Source: Myxococcales bacterium | GTDB taxonomy: Bacteria > Myxococcota_A > Polyangia > Polyangiales > Polyangiaceae | DNA: 38,533 nucleotides | Assembly: GCA_020430845.1 (NCBI GenBank) | Contig: JAGQJA010000095.1 | Location: 1-38,533 of the forward strand | Direction: 5' to 3' | Part shown: positions 2,903 through 12,798 of the stretch, piece by piece | Position numbering within the stretch: the first letter of the stretch is position 1 | How the letters are laid out: each line of letters begins with the position of its first letter | Notes under the pieces: model-generated | The model's database searches: none | Seen by the model: only the letters and a program-made list of their open reading frames with translations | Told to the model about the DNA's origin: nothing | Translations under genes and position numbers: made by a program

Positions 2903-3664
2903 TCAGAACGAGTGGCCGCCGTCGACGTCGACCGTGCGCGCGTTGAAGTAGTCGCACTCCAGCGCGAAGCGCACGGCCTGCCAGATGTCTTCGGGCACGC
3001 CGATGCGCGCGACCGGGATCTGGCCGACGATCGCGTCGCGGGCCTTCTGCGGCATGCCCTTCGTCATCGGCGTCTCGACCATGCCGGGGGCGATGGCGCA
3101 CGCGCGGATGCCGAACGGCGCGAGCTCGCGCGCCCACGTGACCGCGTTCGCCGCGAGGGCCGCCTTGGCCGCCACGTAGTTGGACTGCCCGCGGTTGCCG
3201 TGACGCGAGATCGACGAGATGTTCACGATGACGCCGCGCGTCTCGCCGGGCGTGTGACCGCCTTCGCGCGCGATCTCGGCCGCCACCTCGCGCGCCATCA
3301 GCGTCGCGCCCGTGAGGTTGACCGCGACCACCGCGTTCCAGTCGTCGAGCCCGAGCGTCTTGATGGCGCCGGTCTCGCGGTCCTTCTTGACCAGCAGGCC
3401 GTCGCGCAAGATGCCGGCGTTGTTGACGACGGCGTCGAGGCCGCCGAGCGTCTCCGCGGCCCACGACACGAACGACTTGCAGTCGGCCTCGTTCGAGACG
3501 TCGAGGCGGCGACGGAAGATGGTGTCGGGCAGCTCGGCGAGCATGCCCTCGTTGACGTCGCCGGCGGCGACCTTGGCTCCCGCGTCGGCGAGACGCCGCG
3601 CGAAGTGCGCACCCATGCCCGACGCTGCGCCCGTGACGATGACGCGCAATCCCGAAAGCTTCAT
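2903..3664 (-). CDS. Short-chain dehydrogenase/reductase, likely 3-oxoacyl/acetoacetyl-CoA reductase type
   Basis: This is a classical SDR of 253 aa. The cofactor loop TGAASGMG is at residues 11-18 and NNAG at 81-84. The catalytic set is Ser150/151, Tyr163 and Lys167 (YVAAK). The NAGILRD segment resembles that of acetoacetyl-CoA reductase PhaB and FabG. As last gene of the minus-strand PHA arm it probably makes the (R)-3-hydroxyacyl-CoA monomer for the synthase encoded just upstream, using NADPH. That role comes from context; sequence alone cannot separate PhaB from FabG or another SDR. An AGGAG ribosome site precedes the ATG. The gap from the phaC stop codon is 65 bp, so co-transcription is likely. 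Confidence 0.85.
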   Translation of the reverse strand: MKLSGLRVIVTGAASGMGAHFARRLADAGAKVAAGDVNEGMLAELPDTIFRRRLDVSNEADCKSFVSWAAETLGGLDAVVNNAGILRDGLLVKKDRETGAIKTLGLDDWNAVVAVNLTGATLMAREVAAEIAREGGHTPGETRGVIVNISSISRHGNRGQSNYVAAKAALAANAVTWARELAPFGIRACAIAPGMVETPMTKGMPQKARDAIVGQIPVARIGVPEDIWQAVRFALECDYFNARTVDVDGGHSF

Positions 3665-3729: not shown

Positions 3730-4785
3730 TCAGAGCCGGCTGGCCGGCGGCGGGTCGCGGCGCGTGTGCTCTGTGAGCCACGCCGCCATCCGCGGGTAGA
3801 GGTCCTTCTGCGCGCGGCTCCCGACCACGGCGCCGACGTGTCCGCCGGGGACCGAGAGCACGTCCTTGACTTGTGCGCCGCACAAGTCGAGCAGCGCGGT
3901 GGCGGCCTTGGGCGGACAGATGGCGTCGCGCTCGGCCACGACGGCGAGGACGGGGCAGGTGATGCGCTTCAGGTCGACGCGCTTGCCCGCCACGTGGTGC
4001 TCACCGCGCGCGAGCTGGTTCTGCTGGTACAGCTCGCCGATGTAGCGACGGTAGGCGGCGGCCGGGAAGGGGATGTTGTCGCTCGCCCACGTCTCGAGCG
4101 CCAAGAACGCCTCGCGCGATCTCGGCTCGTGGCCGCGGTCTGCGAAGCCCACCCACTTGGACACCGAGGTGGTCGGCGCGAGCGCCAGGAACCCGCTCTG
4201 CATCTGCGTCGCCGACACGTTGCCCGCCGCGGCCACGGCCTCGGCGTCGAACCATCGCTTGTCGACCATCGTGCCGAGACGGCCCGAGTGCTCGAAGTCG
4301 ATCGGCCCGAGCAGGTCGACGAGCGCCGCGACGACGTGGGGCTCGAGCGCCGCTTGGATGGCCGTGAGCGTCGCGCCCATGCAGTAGCCCACGAGCGAGA
4401 CCTTGGGCGCGCCCGTGATGCGACGCACGGCGGCGATCGCGCGCGCGAGCTTCTTCACGATCTCGTCCCACTCGACGTAGCGGTCTTCGTCCTCGGGGAT
4501 GCCCCAGTCGAGGCAGAAGGTCTCCCAAGGTCTGTCGTGCGAGAGCGCGGCCATGAGGCTCGCGCCTTCCCGGAGGTCGACCACGTACCAGCGGTTGATC
4601 ATCGACGGGACGACCAACACGGGCGCGTGCGTCTTCTCGCGACCCTCCTGCTCGGCGGGATCGCGGAACCTGTAGAGCTTCGCCTTTCCGTCGGTGTGGA
4701 CCACGTCGCGCGGCGTGGGGGCCACGCGCGGCGCGCCGGGCAGGTCCGCGATCCACGGGAGGCGCTCGGGAGCGCTCTGCGTCAC
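3730..4785 (-). CDS. phaC: PHA synthase, class III PhaC-like, 351 aa
   Basis: The length and motif positions match class III PhaC (about 355 aa). The lipase-like box GYCMG places the nucleophile at Cys135, the acid at Asp287 and the base at His316 (GGHVG). Known class III enzymes polymerise (R)-3-hydroxyacyl-CoA to polyester on granules and need a PhaE partner. No full-length PhaE is visible; the small protein just upstream may stand in. The start is a GTG two bases after the TGA of that gene, with a GAAGG ribosome site inside its 3' end, so the two are probably translationally coupled. A 21-bp palindrome lies inside the gene at 3868-3888. A second PHA synthase is encoded at 12800. Confidence 0.9.
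   Translation of the reverse strand: MTQSAPERLPWIADLPGAPRVAPTPRDVVHTDGKAKLYRFRDPAEQEGREKTHAPVLVVPSMINRWYVVDLREGASLMAALSHDRPWETFCLDWGIPEDEDRYVEWDEIVKKLARAIAAVRRITGAPKVSLVGYCMGATLTAIQAALEPHVVAALVDLLGPIDFEHSGRLGTMVDKRWFDAEAVAAAGNVSATQMQSGFLALAPTTSVSKWVGFADRGHEPRSREAFLALETWASDNIPFPAAAYRRYIGELYQQNQLARGEHHVAGKRVDLKRITCPVLAVVAERDAICPPKAATALLDLCGAQVKDVLSVPGGHVGAVVGSRAQKDLYPRMAAWLTEHTRRDPPPASRL
3868..3888. promoter_or_regulatory. Palindrome with TTGTGC arms inside phaC (possible PhaR site)
   Basis: Perfect 9-bp arms, GACTTGTGC and its complement, flank GCC. The inner 15 bp, TTGTGC-GCC-GCACAA, have the same layout and half-site as the operator-like palindromes at 5092-5938. It encodes part of a residue 300-306 segment, so coding constraint could also produce it. 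Confidence 0.4.
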
Positions 4786-4787
4786 GC

Positions 4788-5060
4788 TCAGCCCTTCGCC
4801 GACGTGGCGTGCGTCATGGCCTCGACGCCGAGCTTGCGCATCGACGCGCCGAGCTCGACGGCGTACGCGAGCTGCGCCTTGGTGATGCGCGCGCTCTCCT
4901 GCATCCAGGTGTCGAGGTGCTCGAGGCCGGTGCGCTCCATCTTGGTGATCTCGTCCGAGATCGTCGAGGTGCGGGCCATCTGACCGCGCATCGCGTCGGC
5001 CCAGAAGTCGAGCATCGGGGCGAAGGGGGCGAAGGGCGAGGGGGTGGTCTTGTCGCTCAT
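4788..5060 (-). CDS. Small phasin/PhaE-like granule protein, 90 aa
   Basis: The protein is short and helical with no signal peptide. Its N-terminus (PFAPFAPMLDFWADAMRGQM) is followed by an amphipathic helix through about residue 80. This resembles phasins and the helical part of PhaE, but is much shorter than PhaE (usually over 300 aa). It sits directly upstream of phaC and is probably coupled to it. An AGGAGA ribosome site precedes the ATG. It is the first gene after the twin-operator promoter at 5092-5168. A role as synthase partner or granule coat is inferred from context; I do not recognise a named family. Confidence 0.7.
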   Translation of the reverse strand: MSDKTTPSPFAPFAPMLDFWADAMRGQMARTSTISDEITKMERTGLEHLDTWMQESARITKAQLAYAVELGASMRKLGVEAMTHATSAKG

Positions 5061-5091: not shown

Positions 5092-5106
5092 TGTTGCGGT
5101 GCACAA
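5092..5106. promoter_or_regulatory. Putative PhaR operator, downstream site of the minus-arm promoter
   Basis: The sequence is TGTTGC-GGT-GCACAA; on the minus strand it reads TTGTGC-ACC-GCAACA. It lies 11 bp after the candidate -10 and centres at 5099, exactly 62 bp from the centre of the next copy at 5161. Confidence 0.65.
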
Positions 5107-5117
5107 TGACAGGGCCG

Positions 5118-5146
5118 AAACTAAGCCCACGCCCCCCCTCTGTCAA
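5118..5146 (-). promoter_or_regulatory. Candidate promoter of the phasin-phaC-SDR operon
   Basis: On the minus strand TTGACA (5146-5141) and TAGTTT (5123-5118) are 17 bp apart. The -35 is a perfect consensus; the -10 is weak. Operator-like palindromes lie 7 bp upstream and 11 bp downstream, a layout suited to repression. Confidence 0.55.
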
Positions 5147-5153
5147 CGGCCTG

Positions 5154-5168
5154 TGTTGCGGTGCAACA
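5154..5168. promoter_or_regulatory. Putative PhaR operator, upstream site of the minus-arm promoter
   Basis: TGTTGC-GGT-GCAACA has perfectly symmetrical 6-bp arms. It lies between the phaR stop codon and the -35 element. TGC-rich palindromes are the kind of site reported for PhaR in proteobacteria; binding here is inferred. Confidence 0.7.
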
Positions 5169-5203
5169 AAAAAGTCCGCGGCGTGGCCGGGCCAGGCGGC
5201 GTT

Positions 5204-5842
5204 TCACTTCTTCTTCTTCGCGGCGGCCTTCTTCTTGGGGGCCTTGGCGCGGGCCCGCGGGGCGGGCTTGCCGTCACCGCCCCGGGCCAGCCTCTTGAGC
5301 TCGTCGAGCTCGCGGCGCAGCGCGGCGATCTCGGGGTCCGCGGCCGCGCCTCGCTCCTCGCGAGCAGGCGGCGGCGTGGGCGTCGCGCCTGCGGCGGCCG
5401 GCGCGGGGGGAGGCAGGTCGGCCTGAGGCGCGGGCGGCCCGCCCCCGTAGGCGCCCCAGATCGGGTTGACCATCCGCGCGAAGGCGTTCGTGGCCGCGAA
5501 CGGCGCGCTCGCGATGGGGCCGAGCGGCGGCATGATCTGCCGGGCCTGCACGTACACCGAGAGCGCCCACGACACGTACCGGCCGAAGAACTCGGCCAGC
5601 GCGTCGTCGCCCAGCCGGATGAGCTGCACGAGCAGCGGCACGGGCAACAGGCGCGCCCCGCCCCGCGCCTCGAGGATGATCTGGGTCAGCGTCACCTGCG
5701 TGATGTCGCTGCCGTCCTGCGCGTCCTGCACCATGACGTCGGCGCCCGCGCGGATGCGATCGGCCAGGTCTTCGAGCGTGATGTACCGGCTGTCGACCGT
5801 GTCGTACAGGCGGCGGTTCGAGTACTTCTTGACGATCTGCAT
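5204..5842 (-). CDS. phaR: PHA synthesis regulator PhaR, 212 aa
   Basis: The N-terminus carries the PhaR DNA-binding signature: KKYSNRRLYDT at residues 5-15, then SRYITLEDLA. This is followed by a PHB-accumulation-regulator-like helical region to about residue 110. A Pro/Ala linker, a short coiled coil at about 165-185 and a Lys/Ala/Pro tail with long Lys runs complete it. PhaR proteins repress phasin and PHA genes and are released by binding to nascent granules. The start is the ATG at 5842, because the conserved domain begins there; the frame stays open far upstream without homology. The upstream palindrome at 5862-5876 suggests autoregulation. The basic tail is longer than usual and may add non-specific DNA binding. 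Confidence 0.93.
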   Translation of the reverse strand: MQIVKKYSNRRLYDTVDSRYITLEDLADRIRAGADVMVQDAQDGSDITQVTLTQIILEARGGARLLPVPLLVQLIRLGDDALAEFFGRYVSWALSVYVQARQIMPPLGPIASAPFAATNAFARMVNPIWGAYGGGPPAPQADLPPPAPAAAGATPTPPPAREERGAAADPEIAALRRELDELKRLARGGDGKPAPRARAKAPKKKAAAKKKK

Positions 5843-5861
5843 CGGGCCCGATCCTAGCCGA

Positions 5862-5876
5862 TGTTGCGGCGCAACA
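5862..5876. promoter_or_regulatory. Putative PhaR operator between phaR and the plus-strand operon
   Basis: TGTTGC-GGC-GCAACA is perfectly symmetrical, and a flanking A/T extends the arms by one. It lies 20 bp upstream of the phaR start and 6 bp upstream of the plus-strand -35. It could serve both phaR autoregulation and the divergent operon. Confidence 0.7.
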
Positions 5877-5882
5877 TTCAAC

Positions 5883-5911
5883 TTGACCGACCCCCTCCCC
5901 GGAGCTATCTC
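5883..5911 (+). promoter_or_regulatory. Candidate promoter of the plus-strand PHA/envelope operon
   Basis: TTGACC (5883-5888) and TATCTC (5906-5911) are 17 bp apart. It sits between two operator-like palindromes in almost the same geometry as the minus-arm promoter (6 bp and 12 bp gaps versus 7 and 11). The -10 is weak. Confidence 0.5.
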
Positions 5912-5923
5912 GGTGTCGCCGCG

Positions 5924-5938
5924 TTGTGCGGTGCAACA
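5924..5938. promoter_or_regulatory. Putative PhaR operator, downstream site of the plus-arm promoter
   Basis: TTGTGC-GGT-GCAACA centres at 5931, exactly 62 bp from the site centred at 5869. Read in the direction of transcription, it has the same variant arm order as the downstream site of the other promoter. Confidence 0.65.
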
Positions 5939-6139: not shown

Positions 6140-7120
6140 ATGTTGCCCGACCTTCTTCGACCCATCGCGCGTCCGTCCCTCGCCGTCGCCCTCGCGGGCG
6201 CGTGCCTCGTGGCGGCGGCCCAGGGTTGCTCTTCGGATCCGGCGCGCGAGTGCGTGGTCGGCGCAGACTGCGCATCTGGCCAGTGCGCGCCCGACGGCAC
6301 GTGCGTCCGCGGACCGGCCCCCGACGCCCCGACCGACGGCGGCGACGCGTCCGCGAGCGACGCGGGCCCCGGGGCAGACGCTTCGTCCGACGCGCCCGGC
6401 GACGGACCCACCCTGCCGGGGTGCTCGCCCAACAAGGACGGCATCATCACGGCCGCCGAGGTGCCGCTCAAGGCGGGCCTCCGCGCCACCTACCGCGTGG
6501 GCACCGACGAGTCGGTCGACACGGCGGGCACCAAGCTCCCCGACGGCACGCGCAGCTGGGACTTCTCTGTGCAGCTCGCGTCCGACCGCGCGTTCTTGGT
6601 CGAGACGCTCCCGCTCGCGGGCAAGTGGTACGAGTCGAAGTTCACCGGGGCGACCTACGCCACGCAGCTCCGGGCGTCCTCGCCCGAGCTCGGCATCTTC
6701 GAGGTCTCTCCCACCGCCGTGCTGCTCCGCGGCGTCGTCACCCCCGACGGCGGAGTCTTCCGCACCGAGGTCACGCACGCGCCTCCGCCCTCGATGCTCG
6801 CGTTCCCGCTCTCGATGGGGAAGAAGTGGACCGCCGACGCGAACGTCAGCGGCTTCGTCAACGGCGTGCTCGCGCCGTACTCCGAGAGCTACACGTTCGA
6901 GGTCGACGCGCGCGGCACGCTCAAGACGCCGCTCGGCACGTTCGACGTGCTCCGCGTGCAGATCCTGCTCGAGCGCACGGTCGGCCTGCTCAAGACGACG
7001 GTCCGGTCCTTCGGCTTCGTGTCCGAGTGCTACGGCACCGTGGCCACCGTGGCCTCCGCGGACAACGAGCAGGACGTCGAGTTCACGCGCGCCGCCGAGC
7101 TGCGGCGCATCTCCCCCTGA
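6140..7120 (+). CDS. Lipoprotein with EF-hand-like loop, paralogue of the 9737 gene, 326 aa
   Basis: The signal peptide ends in lipobox AAQGC (Cys30). A Cys-rich stretch (about 38-55) and an Asp/Ala/Gly linker follow. A loop at residues 96-107 (SPNKDGIITAAE) fits the EF-hand spacing except at position 1. The beta-rich domain (about 108-326) has GKWY, a Tyr-rich strand and a late Cys. The same motif order (C-x-PN-x-DG-x-I, ATY-x-V, VD-x-AG, GKWY, late FxxxC) recurs in the gene at 9737, so the two are paralogues. It is first in the plus-strand run and ends two bases before the hydrolase start. I do not recognise the family. A role in binding a substrate or the adjacent outer-membrane barrel is inferred from context. 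Confidence 0.82.
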   Translation: MLPDLLRPIARPSLAVALAGACLVAAAQGCSSDPARECVVGADCASGQCAPDGTCVRGPAPDAPTDGGDASASDAGPGADASSDAPGDGPTLPGCSPNKDGIITAAEVPLKAGLRATYRVGTDESVDTAGTKLPDGTRSWDFSVQLASDRAFLVETLPLAGKWYESKFTGATYATQLRASSPELGIFEVSPTAVLLRGVVTPDGGVFRTEVTHAPPPSMLAFPLSMGKKWTADANVSGFVNGVLAPYSESYTFEVDARGTLKTPLGTFDVLRVQILLERTVGLLKTTVRSFGFVSECYGTVATVASADNEQDVEFTRAAELRRISP

Positions 7121-7122
7121 CG

Positions 7123-8148
7123 GTGACCCCTTTGAAGCTCGAGCTGCTCTTCATCGCCGCGCTCAGCGTCAGCCTCCTCGGCTGCCTGTCGTTCCACCGC
7201 GGGCCCATGCCCGGCGAGCCCGCGGGCGCGCGGTTCGCGGAGATCGAGGGCGCGCGCGTGCGGTACGTCGACAGCGGCGAGTCCGCGCCTGCGGCGCCTC
7301 CTGCTGCGCCGCAACAAGCCGAGGGCGCGCCCGACGCATCGGACGGCTCCGGCGCCCCCGCACCGCAGCAAGGCGACGCCCCGGTGGCGCCTGCCGCCGA
7401 GCGACCCACCGTGGTGCTCATCCACGGCTTCGCGTCCGCCCTCGACACCTGGGACACCGTGCGTCCCGTGCTCGAGCAGCGCTATCGAGTGATCGCGCTC
7501 GACCTCAAGGGCTTCGGGTGGACGGATCGACCCGAGGGCGACTACTCGCCCGAGGCGCAGGCTCGGCTCGTCTTGGCGCTCATGGATGCGCGCGGGGTCA
7601 AGCGGGCCGCCCTCGTGGCCCACTCCTGGGGCTCGTCGGTCGCGCTCCAGGTGGCGCTGCTGGCCCCCGAGCGCGTGACCAAGCTCGCCCTCTACGACGC
7701 GTGGGTCTACGAGGAGCAGCTGCCCGCGTTCTTCCACTGGGCCAGGATGGGCGGCGTCGGCGAGGCGCTCTTTCGTGCGTTCTACACGGAGCGTGCAGAC
7801 GAGCGCATCCGCCTCGCGTTCTACGACAAGAAGTGGGTCACCGAGGCGCTCGTCGAGTCGATCGACGCGGCGCTCGAGCGCCCCGGCACGGTCGCCGCCG
7901 CCCTCGCGGCGGTGCGCGGTCAGCGCTACTCGGAGGTCGAGGGCCGCTACCGCAAGGTGCAGAAGCCCACGCTCTTGCTCTGGGGCCGCGACGACCGCGT
8001 CACGACGCTGCGCTTCGGCGAGCGCCTGTCGCGCGATCTGCCCCACGCGTCGCTCGTCACGTACCCGCGCTGCGGCCACTTTCCGATGCTCGAGGCGCGC
8101 GAGGCGTCGACGCGCGACCTCCTGAGCTTCCTCGGGGGTACGCCGTGA
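7123..8148 (+). CDS. Lipoprotein alpha/beta hydrolase, 341 aa
   Basis: A GTG two bases after the previous stop codon opens a lipoprotein signal (lipobox LLGC, Cys21). An alternative TTG lies three codons in. The fold is an alpha/beta hydrolase: HGFAS at 101-105 (oxyanion region), nucleophile Ser168 in AHSWGSS, Asp290/291 in GRDDR and His319 in CGHF. It should cleave an ester or similar bond at the cell envelope; the substrate is unknown. Between the first strand (ending about 52) and the HG strand (starting about 93) there is a Pro/Ala/Gln-rich insertion of about 40 residues where relatives usually have a few. Its neighbours suggest a link to polyester or lipid turnover. It overlaps the next gene by four bases. 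Confidence 0.85.
   Translation: MTPLKLELLFIAALSVSLLGCLSFHRGPMPGEPAGARFAEIEGARVRYVDSGESAPAAPPAAPQQAEGAPDASDGSGAPAPQQGDAPVAPAAERPTVVLIHGFASALDTWDTVRPVLEQRYRVIALDLKGFGWTDRPEGDYSPEAQARLVLALMDARGVKRAALVAHSWGSSVALQVALLAPERVTKLALYDAWVYEEQLPAFFHWARMGGVGEALFRAFYTERADERIRLAFYDKKWVTEALVESIDAALERPGTVAAALAAVRGQRYSEVEGRYRKVQKPTLLLWGRDDRVTTLRFGERLSRDLPHASLVTYPRCGHFPMLEAREASTRDLLSFLGGTP
7302..7316. promoter_or_regulatory. Operator-like sequence inside the hydrolase gene
   Basis: TGCTGC-GCC-GCAACA differs from the perfect operator at one arm position. It is coding sequence for the Ala/Gln-rich insertion, so chance is quite possible. Confidence 0.25.
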
Positions 8149-9737
8149 GCGCTCCCCGCCGGGCTCGCGCCTCGCTGTGCGCCGCGCTCTGCGCGCTCGC
8201 GATCGCCACGCCGGCGGGGGCGACGGGCTTTCACGAGGTCGGCCAGGACATCCTGCCGCGCGAGCGGACCGAGGTCGAGGTCTCGGGCTACCTGCGCACC
8301 CGCATGGAGGCGCTGCACAACCTCGACCTCGATCGCGGGCTCACGCCGTCGGGTCAGCCGCTCTTCCCCGTGTCCGAGGCCGACCCGCAGGCCCAGACGC
8401 TCACGCACGCCGACATGCGCGCTCGGGCCGACATCAAGCTCTACGCGCCGGGCTCGATGGTCGCGGTCAAGGCGAGGATCGACGCGCTCGACAACCTCAC
8501 CCTCGGCAGCCTCCCCGACGGCGTGCCGTCGGCCGTGACCACGCAGCGCTCACCGGCCGACGCCATTCGCGTGCGTCGGGCGTACGGCGAGCTCCTCTTG
8601 CCGATCGGCCTGCTCGCCGCCGGACGTATGGGCACCCACTGGGGCCTCGGCATGCTCGCCAACGGCGGCGACTGCCTCGACTGCGACTCGAGCGACGCGT
8701 CCGATCGCGTCGCGTTCCTCACGCCCCTCGCGGGCCACATCTTCGCCGCGGCGTACGACTTCAGCGCCACCGGCCCCACGGTGCCGCGCACGCTCCAGGC
8801 GCGCGCGATCGCCGTCGAGCCCACGACGGCCGTGCGCACCGTGACGTTCGCGGCGATGCGCTACCGGGACGAAGAGGCCCGCGCACGGCGCTCCGCGGCG
8901 GGCAAGGTCACGGTCGAGTACGGCAGCTACGTCACGCACCGCTGGCAGACCGACGACGTCCCGTCGAGCTACCTCCCCCTCGCGCAGCCGCTCGACGCCG
9001 CGCGACCGTCGGCCCAGGGCATCATGAGCCGCGGGTTCACGGCGACGGGCGTCGACGGCTGGGCCCGCTTCACGTTCCCCGGAGGGCGCGTCGAGGCCGA
9101 GCTCGCCTACCTCGTGGCGAACGTCGATCAGGCGTCGCTCCTCCCGGGCGTGCTCCTGCGCGATCCGGCCAAGAGCCGACAGCTCGGCGCGGCGCTCGAG
9201 TCGGACTTCGGCTCGGAGCTGTCGCGCTTCGGCGCCGGCCTCGACTTCGGCTACGCGAGCGGCGACCCGGCGCCCGGCTTCGGTGTGGTGCAAAAGCCCA
9301 ATGCTGCGGCGCCGCAGCGCGGTGACCTCGACGGCCCGCAGGCGAGCCCGCGGCGCGACATGCGCGTCGACAACTTTCGCTTCCACCCCGACTACCGCAT
9401 CGACCGCATCCTGTTCCGCGAGATCCTCGGCGCCGTGACCGACGCCGTCTACGCGCGGCCGCACGCGCGCGCTGTCATCACCCGCGCCGCCAGCGGGAGC
9501 CTCGTCGCGCACACGGCCGTCATCGCGTCCACGGCGGTCGAGGCCGCGTCGACGCCCGGCGGCAAGGCGCCCCTCGGCGTCGAGATCGATCCGTCGCTAC
9601 GCTACGAGACGCAGGCGTTCCTCGCGTCGCTCGACTACGGCGTGCTCTTCCCGCTCGCGGGCCTCGACAACGTCGCGTCGGGCCTGTCGGCGCGCCCCGC
9701 GCAGCTCATCCGCCTCCGCCTCAATTACCTCTTCTGA
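8145..9737 (+). CDS. Outer-membrane beta-barrel protein, 530 aa
   Basis: The start is a GTG overlapping the previous stop codon by four bases. The frame is open for another 2.1 kb upstream, but that part is a shadow of the two preceding genes. A signal peptide (about 1-27, ending GATG) is followed by alternating amphipathic strands, and the protein ends LRLNYLF, with a terminal Phe as in outer-membrane barrels. GRMGTHWGLGMLANGGDCLDC at about 157-177 looks like a conserved family signature. I think it belongs with a myxobacterial family annotated as TIGR04551, but could not check. It could form a channel or receptor for products of the lipoprotein hydrolase. Its stop codon shares a base with the next start. 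Confidence 0.8.
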   Translation: MSAPRRARASLCAALCALAIATPAGATGFHEVGQDILPRERTEVEVSGYLRTRMEALHNLDLDRGLTPSGQPLFPVSEADPQAQTLTHADMRARADIKLYAPGSMVAVKARIDALDNLTLGSLPDGVPSAVTTQRSPADAIRVRRAYGELLLPIGLLAAGRMGTHWGLGMLANGGDCLDCDSSDASDRVAFLTPLAGHIFAAAYDFSATGPTVPRTLQARAIAVEPTTAVRTVTFAAMRYRDEEARARRSAAGKVTVEYGSYVTHRWQTDDVPSSYLPLAQPLDAARPSAQGIMSRGFTATGVDGWARFTFPGGRVEAELAYLVANVDQASLLPGVLLRDPAKSRQLGAALESDFGSELSRFGAGLDFGYASGDPAPGFGVVQKPNAAAPQRGDLDGPQASPRRDMRVDNFRFHPDYRIDRILFREILGAVTDAVYARPHARAVITRAASGSLVAHTAVIASTAVEAASTPGGKAPLGVEIDPSLRYETQAFLASLDYGVLFPLAGLDNVASGLSARPAQLIRLRLNYLF

Positions 9738-10624
9738 TGGGACCCTCGATGCAACGCTCCGACCTCCGAAAGCTCGCCGTCGCCGCCGCCGCGCTCGTGG
9801 GGCTCTCCGCGTGCCTCGCGGGCTGCGGCGACAACCGCACCCCGCCGCCCACGCGCGCCGCGTACGAGGCCGGCGCGCCCGAGGCGCTCCCGTGTGTGCC
9901 CAACCTCGACGGCAAGATCGAGGCGAGCGAGCTCACGCCGCAGATCGGCATCCCCGCCACGTACCTCGTGTCGCCGTCCGGCAAGGAGCGCACGGTCGAC
10001 GTCGCCGGCGCGCCCAACGCGCAGGGGCAGCTCGCCTGGTCGCTCGGCGTCGACTTCGCAGACGATCTCGCGCTCACCGTGCGCGCCTCCACCGTCGAGG
10101 GCAAGTGGTACGCGGCGTCGTTCCCGCAGCCGGGCGCCTTCGTCGCGCCGTTCGACGCGGGCGGTCGCGTCGAGGGCGTGTACCTGCACAGCCCCGAGCG
10201 CTTGTCGTTGCTGGGGCTCGCGTCGGTGGCGCCCGACGTGCCCGAGGGCAAGACGTTGCTCGTCTACGGCACCCCGGTCGAGCTCTATCGTTTTCCGCTC
10301 GCCCCGGGGGCGGAGTGGTCGAGCGTGGGCGAGGTGCGCGACGCGACGCTCCGCGGCCTGCCCTACGCGGGCCGCGACACGTACGAGGTCAAGGTCGACG
10401 GCGCGGGGCAGCTGGCGCTCCCCGACTTCGTCCTCACGCAGGCGCTGCGCGTCCGCGTCAAGGTCACGGTCGCGCCCGCGGCCGGACAGACGACGACGCA
10501 GCGGCAGACGCAGTTCTTGTTCGAGTGCCTGGGCGAGGTCGCCCGCGCGACGAGCAAGCTCGACGAGCCACAAGAGAACTTCACGACGGCGCTCGAGCTC
10601 CGTCGGTTGGGCCTCGGCCCGTGA
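9737..10624 (+). CDS. Lipoprotein, paralogue of the 6140 gene, 295 aa
   Basis: The ATG at 9737 shares its A with the preceding TGA; a second ATG four codons later is also possible. Lipobox CLAGC puts the lipid on Cys30. A loop at residues 54-65 (VPNLDGKIEASE) matches the EF-hand-like loop of the 6140 product at the same relative place. The following domain shares the ATY-x-V, VD-x-AG, GKWY and late-Cys landmarks, without the long Asp/Ala linker. The two paralogues bracket the hydrolase and the barrel, which suggests they act with the same barrel or substrate. The family is not recognised. Confidence 0.82.
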   Translation: MGPSMQRSDLRKLAVAAAALVGLSACLAGCGDNRTPPPTRAAYEAGAPEALPCVPNLDGKIEASELTPQIGIPATYLVSPSGKERTVDVAGAPNAQGQLAWSLGVDFADDLALTVRASTVEGKWYAASFPQPGAFVAPFDAGGRVEGVYLHSPERLSLLGLASVAPDVPEGKTLLVYGTPVELYRFPLAPGAEWSSVGEVRDATLRGLPYAGRDTYEVKVDGAGQLALPDFVLTQALRVRVKVTVAPAAGQTTTQRQTQFLFECLGEVARATSKLDEPQENFTTALELRRLGLGP

Positions 10625-10638
10625 CACGTGGGCGCACG

Positions 10639-10653
10639 TGGTGCGCCGCAACA
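10639..10653. promoter_or_regulatory. Putative PhaR operator in front of the second phasin-like gene
   Basis: TGGTGC-GCC-GCAACA keeps the TGC-N3-GCA core and one perfect arm. It lies 4 bp before the AAGGAG ribosome site. It overlaps a 7-3-7 perfect palindrome at 10631-10647 that could form an RNA hairpin. Confidence 0.5.
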
Positions 10654-10669
10654 TGACAAGGAGCGAATC

Positions 10670-10951
10670 ATGATCTGGGACACCTGGAAGAAGGGCTTCG
10701 ACGCTTGGGAGTCGGCCACCGCCAAGCTGATGGAAGAGATGCTCAAGAGCCCCGCCGTGCTCTGGCCGAGCGGCGCGATGCTCACGGGCGCCATGAAGGC
10801 GAAGACGGCGTACGACCGCGCCGTCTCGCAGTGGGTCGGCGCCGCGGGGGTGGCCACCAAGCGCGATCAGGAGCGCATGCTGCACGCCATCCACCAGCTC
10901 GAGAGCAAGCTGCTCGATCTCGAGGAGAAGCTCTCGCAGAAGAACGCCTGA
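10670..10951 (+). CDS. Second small phasin/PhaE-like protein, 93 aa
   Basis: The ATG at 10670 follows AAGGAG at 10658-10663; an in-frame upstream ATG has no ribosome site and would cross the operator. The product begins [20 protein letters not shown], is helical throughout and ends in a heptad-like Leu/Glu/Lys coiled coil (about 65-93). It resembles the helical part of PhaE and phasins, like the 4788 gene, though the two share little direct identity. It precedes the acyl-CoA synthetase and second PHA synthase. A granule-coat or synthase-partner role is inferred. Confidence 0.72.
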
Positions 10952-11049: not shown

Positions 11050-12798
11050 ATGGACATCACGCCGTACACCGAGCTTCGTATCGCGCCCCGCGCCGTCTTC
11101 GACGCGCTCTCCGAGAGGAGCTCGCGCCCGAGATTCATGGTGCCCGACGGCGCGGACTGGCGCGCGGTGACGTGGGGCGCGTTCGCCAAGGAGATCAAGG
11201 AGATCGCGCTCTTCCTCGGCACCGTCCTCAAGAGCACCGACCGCGCGTGCGTCTACGCCCCCAACCGCGTCGAGTGGGCCTCGGCCGCGCTCGCCATCCA
11301 GGCCGCGGGCGGCGCGATGGTGCCGATCTACCCCGCGTGCACGGCCGAGCAGGCCGCGTACGTGGCGTCCCACGCCGACGCCAAGGTGGTCTTCGTCGAC
11401 ACGCCTGCGCTGTTGGCGCGCCTCTTCGAGGCGTGGCCCGCGCTCGGCTGCGTCGAGAAGGTCGTGCTGCTCGACGACGGGCTCGACCCCGAGCGCGTGC
11501 TCGCCTCCCTGCGCGACAAGGGCGTCGCGGCGCCGGGCTACGCCGACGTCGAGCCTCGCATCGTGCACTGGACGCGCGCCCGCGCGATCGGTCGCGCGCG
11601 CGGCGAGGCGGACCCCGCGGCGTTCGAGCGCACGATGCACGCCGTCTCGCTCGATCAGGTGGGCATGATGCTCTACACGAGCGGCACGTCGGGCGACCCC
11701 AAGGGCGTGCCGCTCACGCACCGCAACGTCGGCGTCAACGGCCTCGACTGGCTCAAGTGCAACGCCCCCCTCGTCGACGAGGGCGCGGTCGACGTGCTCT
11801 GGTTGCCCATGAGCCACATCTTCGGCTTCGGCGAGATGTGCCTCGGCAACACGCTCGGCTTCACGAGCTACCTGTCCGATCCGGTGAGCTGCCTGAGCAA
11901 GCTCCCCGAGGTCCGGCCGAGCGTCTTCATGAGCGTGCCGTCGCACTGGGAGAAGCTCGCGCAGGCCGCCGCGTCCGAGCCGACCACCGAGGCGAAGGTC
12001 AAGAAGCTCCGCGAGGTCACGGGCGGCAACCTGCGCTTCTGCCTCTCGGGCGGCGCTGGCCTCAAGCGCGAGGTCAAGGAGCTGTTCCACGCGGCCGGCG
12101 TGCTCATCGTCGAGGGCTACGGCCTCACCGAGACGTCGCCCACGCTCACCCTCAACCGGCCCGACGCGTTCCGGTTCGACACCGTGGGCAAGCCGCTCCC
12201 GTCGGTCGAGCTCAAGCTCGCCGAGGACGGAGAGATCCTCGCGCGCGGCGCGAACGTGTTCTCGGGCTACCACAAGGATCCGGAGGCGACGCGCGAGGCG
12301 TTCACGTCCGACGGCTGGTTCAAGACCGGGGACGTCGGGCGGTTCACCGACGACGGCTTCCTGCAGATCATCGACCGCAAGAAGGACATCCTCGTGACGG
12401 CCGGCGGCAAGAACGTCGCGCCCGCCAACATCGAGCTGCGCTTCCGCGACGACCCGTTCATCGCGCACGTCGTCGTGTACGGCGACGCGCGCAAGTTCCT
12501 GGTGTGCGGCGTGTGGCTCGAGCCCACGGCGGTCAAGGCCAAGCTCGGCGACGCACCGAACGAGGCCGAGCTGCGCGCGCTCGTGCAGCGCCGCATCGAC
12601 GACGTCAACGCCAAGGTCGCCAAGTTCGAGACGCTCAAGAAGTTCGTCCTGTTCGACGAGCCCCTCACCGTCGAAAATGGCATGCTGACCGCGTCGTTCA
12701 AGGTTCGCCGCAAGAAGGTGTACGAGCGCTTCGGCGCGCGCCTCGAGGCGCTGTACGACGAGCCCAAGCCCGAGACCGCACAAGAGACCCGAGCCTGA
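11050..12798 (+). CDS. AMP-forming long-chain acyl-CoA synthetase, 582 aa
   Basis: Adenylate-forming enzyme motifs are complete: P-loop [11 protein letters not shown] at residues 209-219, YGLTETSP at 357-364, TGDVG at 426-430, [14 protein letters not shown] at about 442-455 and the C-terminal Lys551 (ASFKVRRK). It is of the FadD15/FAA type and turns a free fatty or hydroxy acid into the acyl-CoA with ATP. A GAGGAG ribosome site precedes the ATG; the open frame upstream is not coding. It ends one base before the second PHA synthase start. That points to activation of acids for polyester synthesis, as opposed to beta-oxidation alone. Chain-length preference cannot be read from sequence. Confidence 0.92.

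Follow-up and report, generated by a model that had tools for sequence, protein, structure and literature searches.

Given that a phaR homologue in the window (the whole 38,533-nucleotide stretch of Myxococcales DNA that was analysed) lies between two promoter-like modules, each framed by a pair of palindromic boxes, we asked what keeps the two boxes of a pair at their distance and what such pairs are likely to do. The modules consist of the features below, in which D denotes the phasin-side promoter, U the divergent promoter, and O1 and O2 the upstream and downstream box of each.

5092-5106, minus strand: O2 of the D promoter, TTGTGC-ACC-GCAACA, 11 bp past the -10, predicted centre about +13
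5118-5123, minus strand: -10 of the D promoter, TAGTTT, 17-bp spacer to the -35
5141-5146, minus strand: -35 of the D promoter, TTGACA, 7 bp from O1
5154-5168, minus strand: O1 of the D promoter, TGTTGC-ACC-GCAACA, predicted centre about -50
5204-5842, minus strand: B-type phaR homologue of 212 aa, putative PHA-responsive repressor
5862-5876, plus strand: O1 of the U promoter, TGTTGC-GGC-GCAACA
5883-5888, plus strand: -35 of the U promoter, TTGACC, 6 bp from O1
5906-5911, plus strand: -10 of the U promoter, TATCTC, 17-bp spacer to the -35
5924-5938, plus strand: O2 of the U promoter, TTGTGC-GGT-GCAACA, 12 bp past the -10, predicted centre about +14

All four PhaR-type boxes (TGTTGC-N3-GCAACA, at most two mismatches) were located where a prior reading of the letters alone, hereafter the sequence-only reading, had put them, with 62 bp from centre to centre in both pairs and a perfect palindrome as the upstream member of each. 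The same reading had placed the -35 and -10 elements of the two modules in equivalent positions to within 1 bp, with the PhaR gene between the modules, and both statements hold. It had further described TTGTGC as the first arm of the downstream box; this is true of both window modules and of the divergent side at 8 of 10 loci in the genus, but on the phasin side it is confined to the window itself (1 of 10). The U-promoter O1 has its centre 27 bp ahead of the phaR start codon (ATG) and may therefore also be a phaR operator. A TAGGAT hexamer (5851-5856, minus strand) stands 8 bp before that ATG, and nine of the ten genus loci show, by eye, a TANNNT 6-10 bp ahead of the start codon of phaR, a placement that suggests a leaderless phaR transcript whose promoter is perhaps overlapped by the divergent-module O1.

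The protein encoded between the modules carries the PHB_acc_N DNA-binding domain (PF07879, E 1.6e-24, 86.2 bits, cutoff 25), while the PHB_acc domain (PF05233) scored 19.1 bits, under the Pfam gathering score of 27. TIGR01848 matched nearly the full length of its model (E 8e-27) at 93.8 bits against a cutoff of 109.45, and we therefore name the protein a PhaR homologue rather than a curated equivalog; PhaR proteins of relatives scored 89-102 bits on this model, below the cutoff in all three tested. A PDB search with PhaR returned only three weak matches, to designed proteins (E up to 1), and a narrow literature search found no work on myxobacterial PhaR. The C-terminus of B-type PhaR is often a coiled-coil-like stretch followed by a Lys/Arg-rich tail: Lys and Arg make up 30% or more of the final 40 residues in 15 of 57 B-type versus 0 of 26 A-type rows, the latter including a few duplicates. 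PhaM, which reportedly ties PHB granules to the nucleoid, is said to have a similar tail.

Comparison with characterized systems supports the assignment of the boxes to PhaR, since they agree with footprint-backed PhaR/PhbF motifs. The comparisons made here with PhaR/PhbF and with LacI draw, as a group, on portions of PMC12849132, PMC3570403, PMC12542648, PMC10888616, PMC6201568, PMC3206438, PMC5081198 and PMC9049629. The Herbaspirillum seropedicae PhbF motif, TG[N]TGC[N]3GCAA, lies inside a DNase I-protected region and resembles that of the window, and PhbF is a tetrameric repressor; paired spacing is not mentioned for its regulon in the portions drawn upon. The Ralstonia eutropha (Cupriavidus necator) PhaR motif, deduced from published sites, is YTKNTGCRNYGCANMAR, and that of Bradyrhizobium diazoefficiens is TGCRNYGCASMA, from which the window boxes depart by reading GCAACA across the S position. 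In B. diazoefficiens one phaP1 site was footprinted 6 bp upstream of the -35, with a TGC-N3-GCA core as in the window, and its second box lies 6 bp downstream of the -35, unlike that of the window, which is at the predicted start site.

The closest likeness is to the repressed R. eutropha phaP1 promoter, described as having PhaR sites just upstream of the -35 and around the start site (BS1/BS2): there, as here, a box of the same type stands directly upstream of the -35 of a sigma70 promoter (7 bp in Cupriavidus) and a second one at the start. Both window modules have this layout, with a TGC-N3-GCA palindrome 7 bp (D) or 6 bp (U) upstream of the -35 and another at the inferred start site, 11 bp (D) or 12 bp (U) after the -10. 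Cupriavidus phaP1 promoters extracted from genomes differ in detail, as six of seven loci place O1 and O2 56 bp apart (no O1 was seen in the remaining one), about half a helical turn shorter than the 62 bp of the window, and the -10 to O2 distance is 6 bp with hexamers chosen by eye. No common helical phase was seen among the box spacings of the window genus, Cupriavidus and B. diazoefficiens. The two-box promoter design is thus known from Cupriavidus phaP1, for which one such promoter is described in the portions cited, and is here used twice, around phaR, extending a footprinted design to another bacterial lineage.

To place these distances in a wider context we used 57 B-type phaR loci from relatives, chosen among the matches listed (at least 126 of the 144 genomes contain PF07879); short duplicates of a locus were removed before counting. 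Genus sites served to seed the score matrix, with two seeds coming from family loci L071 and L072; the matrix is thus circular for the genus and less so for other genera. Both box pairs were present in 10 of 10 B-type loci of the genus, drawn from 9 of its 12 genomes, with D spacings of 62, 63, 64, 64, 64, 61, 64, 65, 64 and 63 bp and, in the same locus order, U spacings of 62, 62, 80, 80, 64, 60, 62, 64, 63 and 63 bp. The SD of the D spacing was 1.2 bp, compared with 94 bp for the distance from the phaR stop to O1 and 11 bp from O2 to the phasin ATG; that of the U spacing was 7.5 bp over all ten loci and fell to 1.3 bp once the two 80s were set aside. The distances in related genomes, for which the sequence-only reading had proposed a search, are hence not random (D 61-65 bp in 10 of 10 genus loci). 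Throughout, only the nearest box within 40-110 bp of O1 was counted as O2. Outside the genus, 12 of 16 loci, representing 8 of 11 genera, have a U pair at 60-69 bp (p 1.7e-5 compared with a uniform distribution over 40-110 bp), with exceptions at 56, 91, 96 and 96 bp, and only five D pairs were counted, at 55, 55, 68, 74 and 77 bp.

Collectively, these data demonstrate that the spacing is constrained to a band and not to 62 bp. The earlier argument for selection on spacing is upheld insofar as the D distances scarcely vary, but not in its exact value, with D at 61-65 bp and U at 60-64 bp plus two 80s. We rejected a strict 62-bp rule on the same distances, together with the 60-69 bp of the U pair in other genera and the 56 bp of Cupriavidus. 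Nor does the equality of the two window distances carry a signal alone, since it is expected in about 21% of cases from the genus distances with the two 80s left out. At the two loci with a U spacing of 80 bp (L054 and L055), a GTTGC-N6-GCAAC palindrome was noted by eye between the -10 and O2 and is perhaps a decayed earlier box.

Closer inspection of the promoters shows where the constraint is strongest. Across the 57 loci, 79 promoters met the search definition (40 D, 39 U), and in all 79 O1 lies 5-10 bp before the -35, within an allowed O1 to TTGAC range of 2-15 bp; in the genus, TTGAC follows the D O1 by 7-8 bp in 10 of 10 loci. None of the 79 is reversed: U promoters all point away from phaR, and D promoters read in the phaR direction. 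A 17-bp spacer separates the -35 and -10 in 57 of them, the -10 boxes having been chosen by a simple score that tried 17 bp first. O2 was counted in 15 of 40 D and 26 of 39 U promoters, and throughout the genus both promoters have it, 9-14 bp from the -10 save for two at 30 bp. Because the place of O1 is constant and O2 is optional by lineage, the anchored element is O1 relative to the -35, and the deepest constraint is the place of a box relative to its promoter, that of the upstream box above all. This tells the constant part of the design (box versus -35) apart from the variable part (the downstream box). At 8 of the 57 loci neither side has a promoter of the O1-TTGAC kind, and at five of these (L102, L103, L111, L101 and L068) there is no box near phaR altogether; three loci are short (L039, L042 and L051), so sites may be missed there.

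The two promoters face distinct sets of genes, listed here with an additional box.

2903-3664, minus strand: SDR reductase (PhaB/FabG-like), PF13561, E 1.8e-43
3730-4785, minus strand: PhaC-like synthase, class III type, TIGR01836, E 3.2e-73, 246.7 bits, below the cutoff of 365.3
4788-5060, minus strand: putative small phasin, first gene of the D promoter, named from its location and from homologues that follow phaR
6140-7120, plus strand: putative lipoprotein 1 (by eye), first conserved gene of the U promoter, no Pfam or NCBIfam match
7123-8148, plus strand: alpha/beta hydrolase, PF00561, E 2.2e-32
8148-9737, plus strand: TIGR04551 family protein, E 6.9e-99, over the cutoff
9737-10624, plus strand: putative lipoprotein 2, resembling lipoprotein 1 by sequence similarity
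10639-10653, plus strand: extra PhaR-type box, TGGTGCGCCGCAACA, preceding the PhaE-like gene
10670-10951, plus strand: PhaE-like short protein, PF09712, E 4e-4, 20.2 bits, below the cutoff of 25.7
11065-12798, plus strand: acyl-CoA ligase, PF00501, E 3.9e-63

Phasin models did not match the 4788-5060 product (Pfam gave a sub-threshold FliN_N only, NCBIfam nothing). Within 4 kb downstream of phaR, homologues of the phasin, phaC and the SDR gene occur at 25, 28 and 20 of the 57 loci, and within 7 kb on the divergent side lipoprotein 1 occurs at 43, TIGR04551 at 33, the PhaE-like gene at 36 and the CoA ligase at 34 (the hydrolase was not counted), with some contigs ending too early to decide. Lipoprotein 2 counts take in matches on the lipoprotein 1 gene, as the lipoprotein 2 query matches the lipoprotein 1 position in several relatives at 30-36% identity. 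A phasin, phaC or SDR homologue lies downstream of 35 of the 40 D promoters, the other five having no PHA-type homologue within 4 kb downstream in the sequence examined, and a gene of the divergent set lies downstream of all 39 U promoters. The TIGR04551 protein, of which the literature searched held no mention, may be an outer-membrane barrel. The U side probably puts an unstudied envelope gene set under PhaR, which would tie an uncharacterized, often conserved operon to PHA control.

From this arrangement, we consider it likely that PhaR represses both arms from boxes near -50 and +13 and that PHA relieves this repression by titration. Each module would constitute a sigma70-type promoter between two PhaR boxes, the upstream one set against the -35 and the downstream one over the first transcribed bases. 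When polymer is absent, free PhaR from the intervening gene would fill the boxes and block RNA polymerase at both promoters; nascent PHA would then titrate PhaR off, and both arms would open, the minus arm for the putative phasin, PHA synthase and reductase and the plus arm for the lipoprotein-hydrolase-TIGR04551-lipoprotein-PhaE-like-CoA ligase operon. The near-constant box spacing would follow mainly from the place that each box requires relative to the promoter.

The sequence-only reading had gone further, suggesting that about six helical turns would allow two PhaR units to meet on one DNA face or to form a small loop. A PhaR tetramer bridging O1 and O2, with the DNA between them folded into a small repression loop and the spacing selected for its geometry, is a possibility that we hold only tentatively. 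In its favor, PhaR is described as tetrameric in B. diazoefficiens and, as cited there, in P. denitrificans, as is PhbF in H. seropedicae; LacI, although unrelated to PhaR, acts through an operator pair around a promoter, as in the window, and in E. coli it forms repression loops spanning 6-8 turns; and a LacI-like role of auxiliary sites has already been proposed for R. eutropha phaP1. The D and U spacings also covary in eight genus loci, leaving out the two with U = 80 (r 0.85, permutation p 0.009; tree contrasts r 0.79, p 0.008, seven contrasts). This correlation falls to 0.68 without L057, so that one species bears much of the signal, and to r 0.39 (p 0.11) when all ten loci are taken, as the two with U = 80 have D = 64. 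The four loci from other genera in which both pairs occur have D/U spacings of 55/65, 55/65, 68/96 and 74/91 bp, differing by 10-28 bp, and the Cupriavidus spacing likewise argues against a fixed geometry. Given that 60-65 bp in the genus already spans half a helical turn and 60-69 bp across genera most of one, strict phasing is unsupported, and what survives of the earlier suggestion is the tetrameric state of relatives and the covariation in 8 of 10 loci. Simple blocking by two promoter-placed boxes fits the data with fewer assumptions than a loop. The natural spacing variants now at hand offer material for testing DNA looping by tetrameric PhaR.

A broader version, in which PhaR bridges with a species-tuned spacing, the two promoters drift together, and the polymer state also controls an envelope operon that may import and activate outside hydroxyacids or fatty acids, appears to us rather doubtful.

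Repression itself is not certain, since PhaR of R. eutropha acts on phaP3 as an activator, from upstream sites, and O1 near -50 could accordingly be an activator site with O2 as the repressor site. Such a dual role would suit the promoters in which O1 has no counted O2, 25 of the 40 on the D side and 13 of the 39 on the U side. A lone box near -50 is an unusual position for a repressor, and such lone boxes are common here outside the genus. Two points make the dual role improbable: the phaP1 promoter of R. eutropha shares this layout and is repressed, and the -35 elements of the window match TTGAC well enough that an activator should be unnecessary.

The two modules have one layout, inverted around phaR. 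A recent inverted duplication with inherited equal spacing would produce this symmetry, yet it is very unlikely: the 47-bp inner segments agree at 12 of 47 positions, bearing out the divergence that the sequence-only reading had described, and D/U identity within species (0.22-0.47) is at the background seen across species (0.29), so the modules are not a recent copy. D instead resembles the D of other species (0.46) and U their U (0.47), and all ten genus loci have both modules. Chance origin of the palindromes in a G+C-rich window has a negligible probability even though three more window boxes (2292, 7302 and 10639) fall outside the promoter layout, as simulated windows (300, order-2 Markov model) contained on average 0.22 sites (at most two mismatches, intact TGC-N3-GCA core) versus 7 in the real window, none of the 300 contained four within 850 bp, and the conservation of the boxes in relatives already refutes it.

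In the genome as a whole (8.56 Mb, 88.7% complete), the compact pattern GCAACA-N5-8-TTGAC-N34-44-TGCN3GCA has two matches, both at this locus, and its reversed control none. The box at 10639-10653 is letter-for-letter the downstream box of Cupriavidus phaP1, as contained in the phaP1 oligo; a box within 120 bp upstream of the PhaE-like gene was found in only 6 of 36 loci, the window locus included, which amounts to no conservation, with the boxes of L083, L107, L109 and L112 assigned to the U region because the PhaE-like gene there lies within about 260 bp of phaR. This extra box is probably lineage-specific or due to chance. Elsewhere in the genome, a perfect box (G000:C270:3944-3958, L010 near 1501) is flanked by a TTGAC on one side and by the start of an ACP_syn_III-type gene on the other, and could be a third target with another layout.

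The genome carries two PhaR paralogues, and the A-type protein could be a competitor of the B-type one encoded in the window. Of seven same-genus A-type phaR loci (L052 and L062-L067), four have no box at up to two mismatches; L063 and L064 have one each and L066 two, every one with two mismatches. The clamp pattern was found in all nine genus genomes with B-type PhaR and in none of the three with A-type PhaR only. Across the 144 genomes it gave 37 matches, versus 9 in the reversed control: 25 beside phaR, 4 at YaaH-like genes, 5 chance-like, and one each at a phasin-like gene (L117, by eye), a PHB depolymerase gene (PF10503) and an alpha/beta hydrolase gene. The YaaH-like genes (L138, L139, L122 and L135) come from four genomes of two other genera and were named by a sub-threshold Pfam match for L138 (E 7e-4) and by eye for the other three. 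The occurrence of the clamp at YaaH-like, phasin-like, depolymerase and hydrolase genes fits PHA control.
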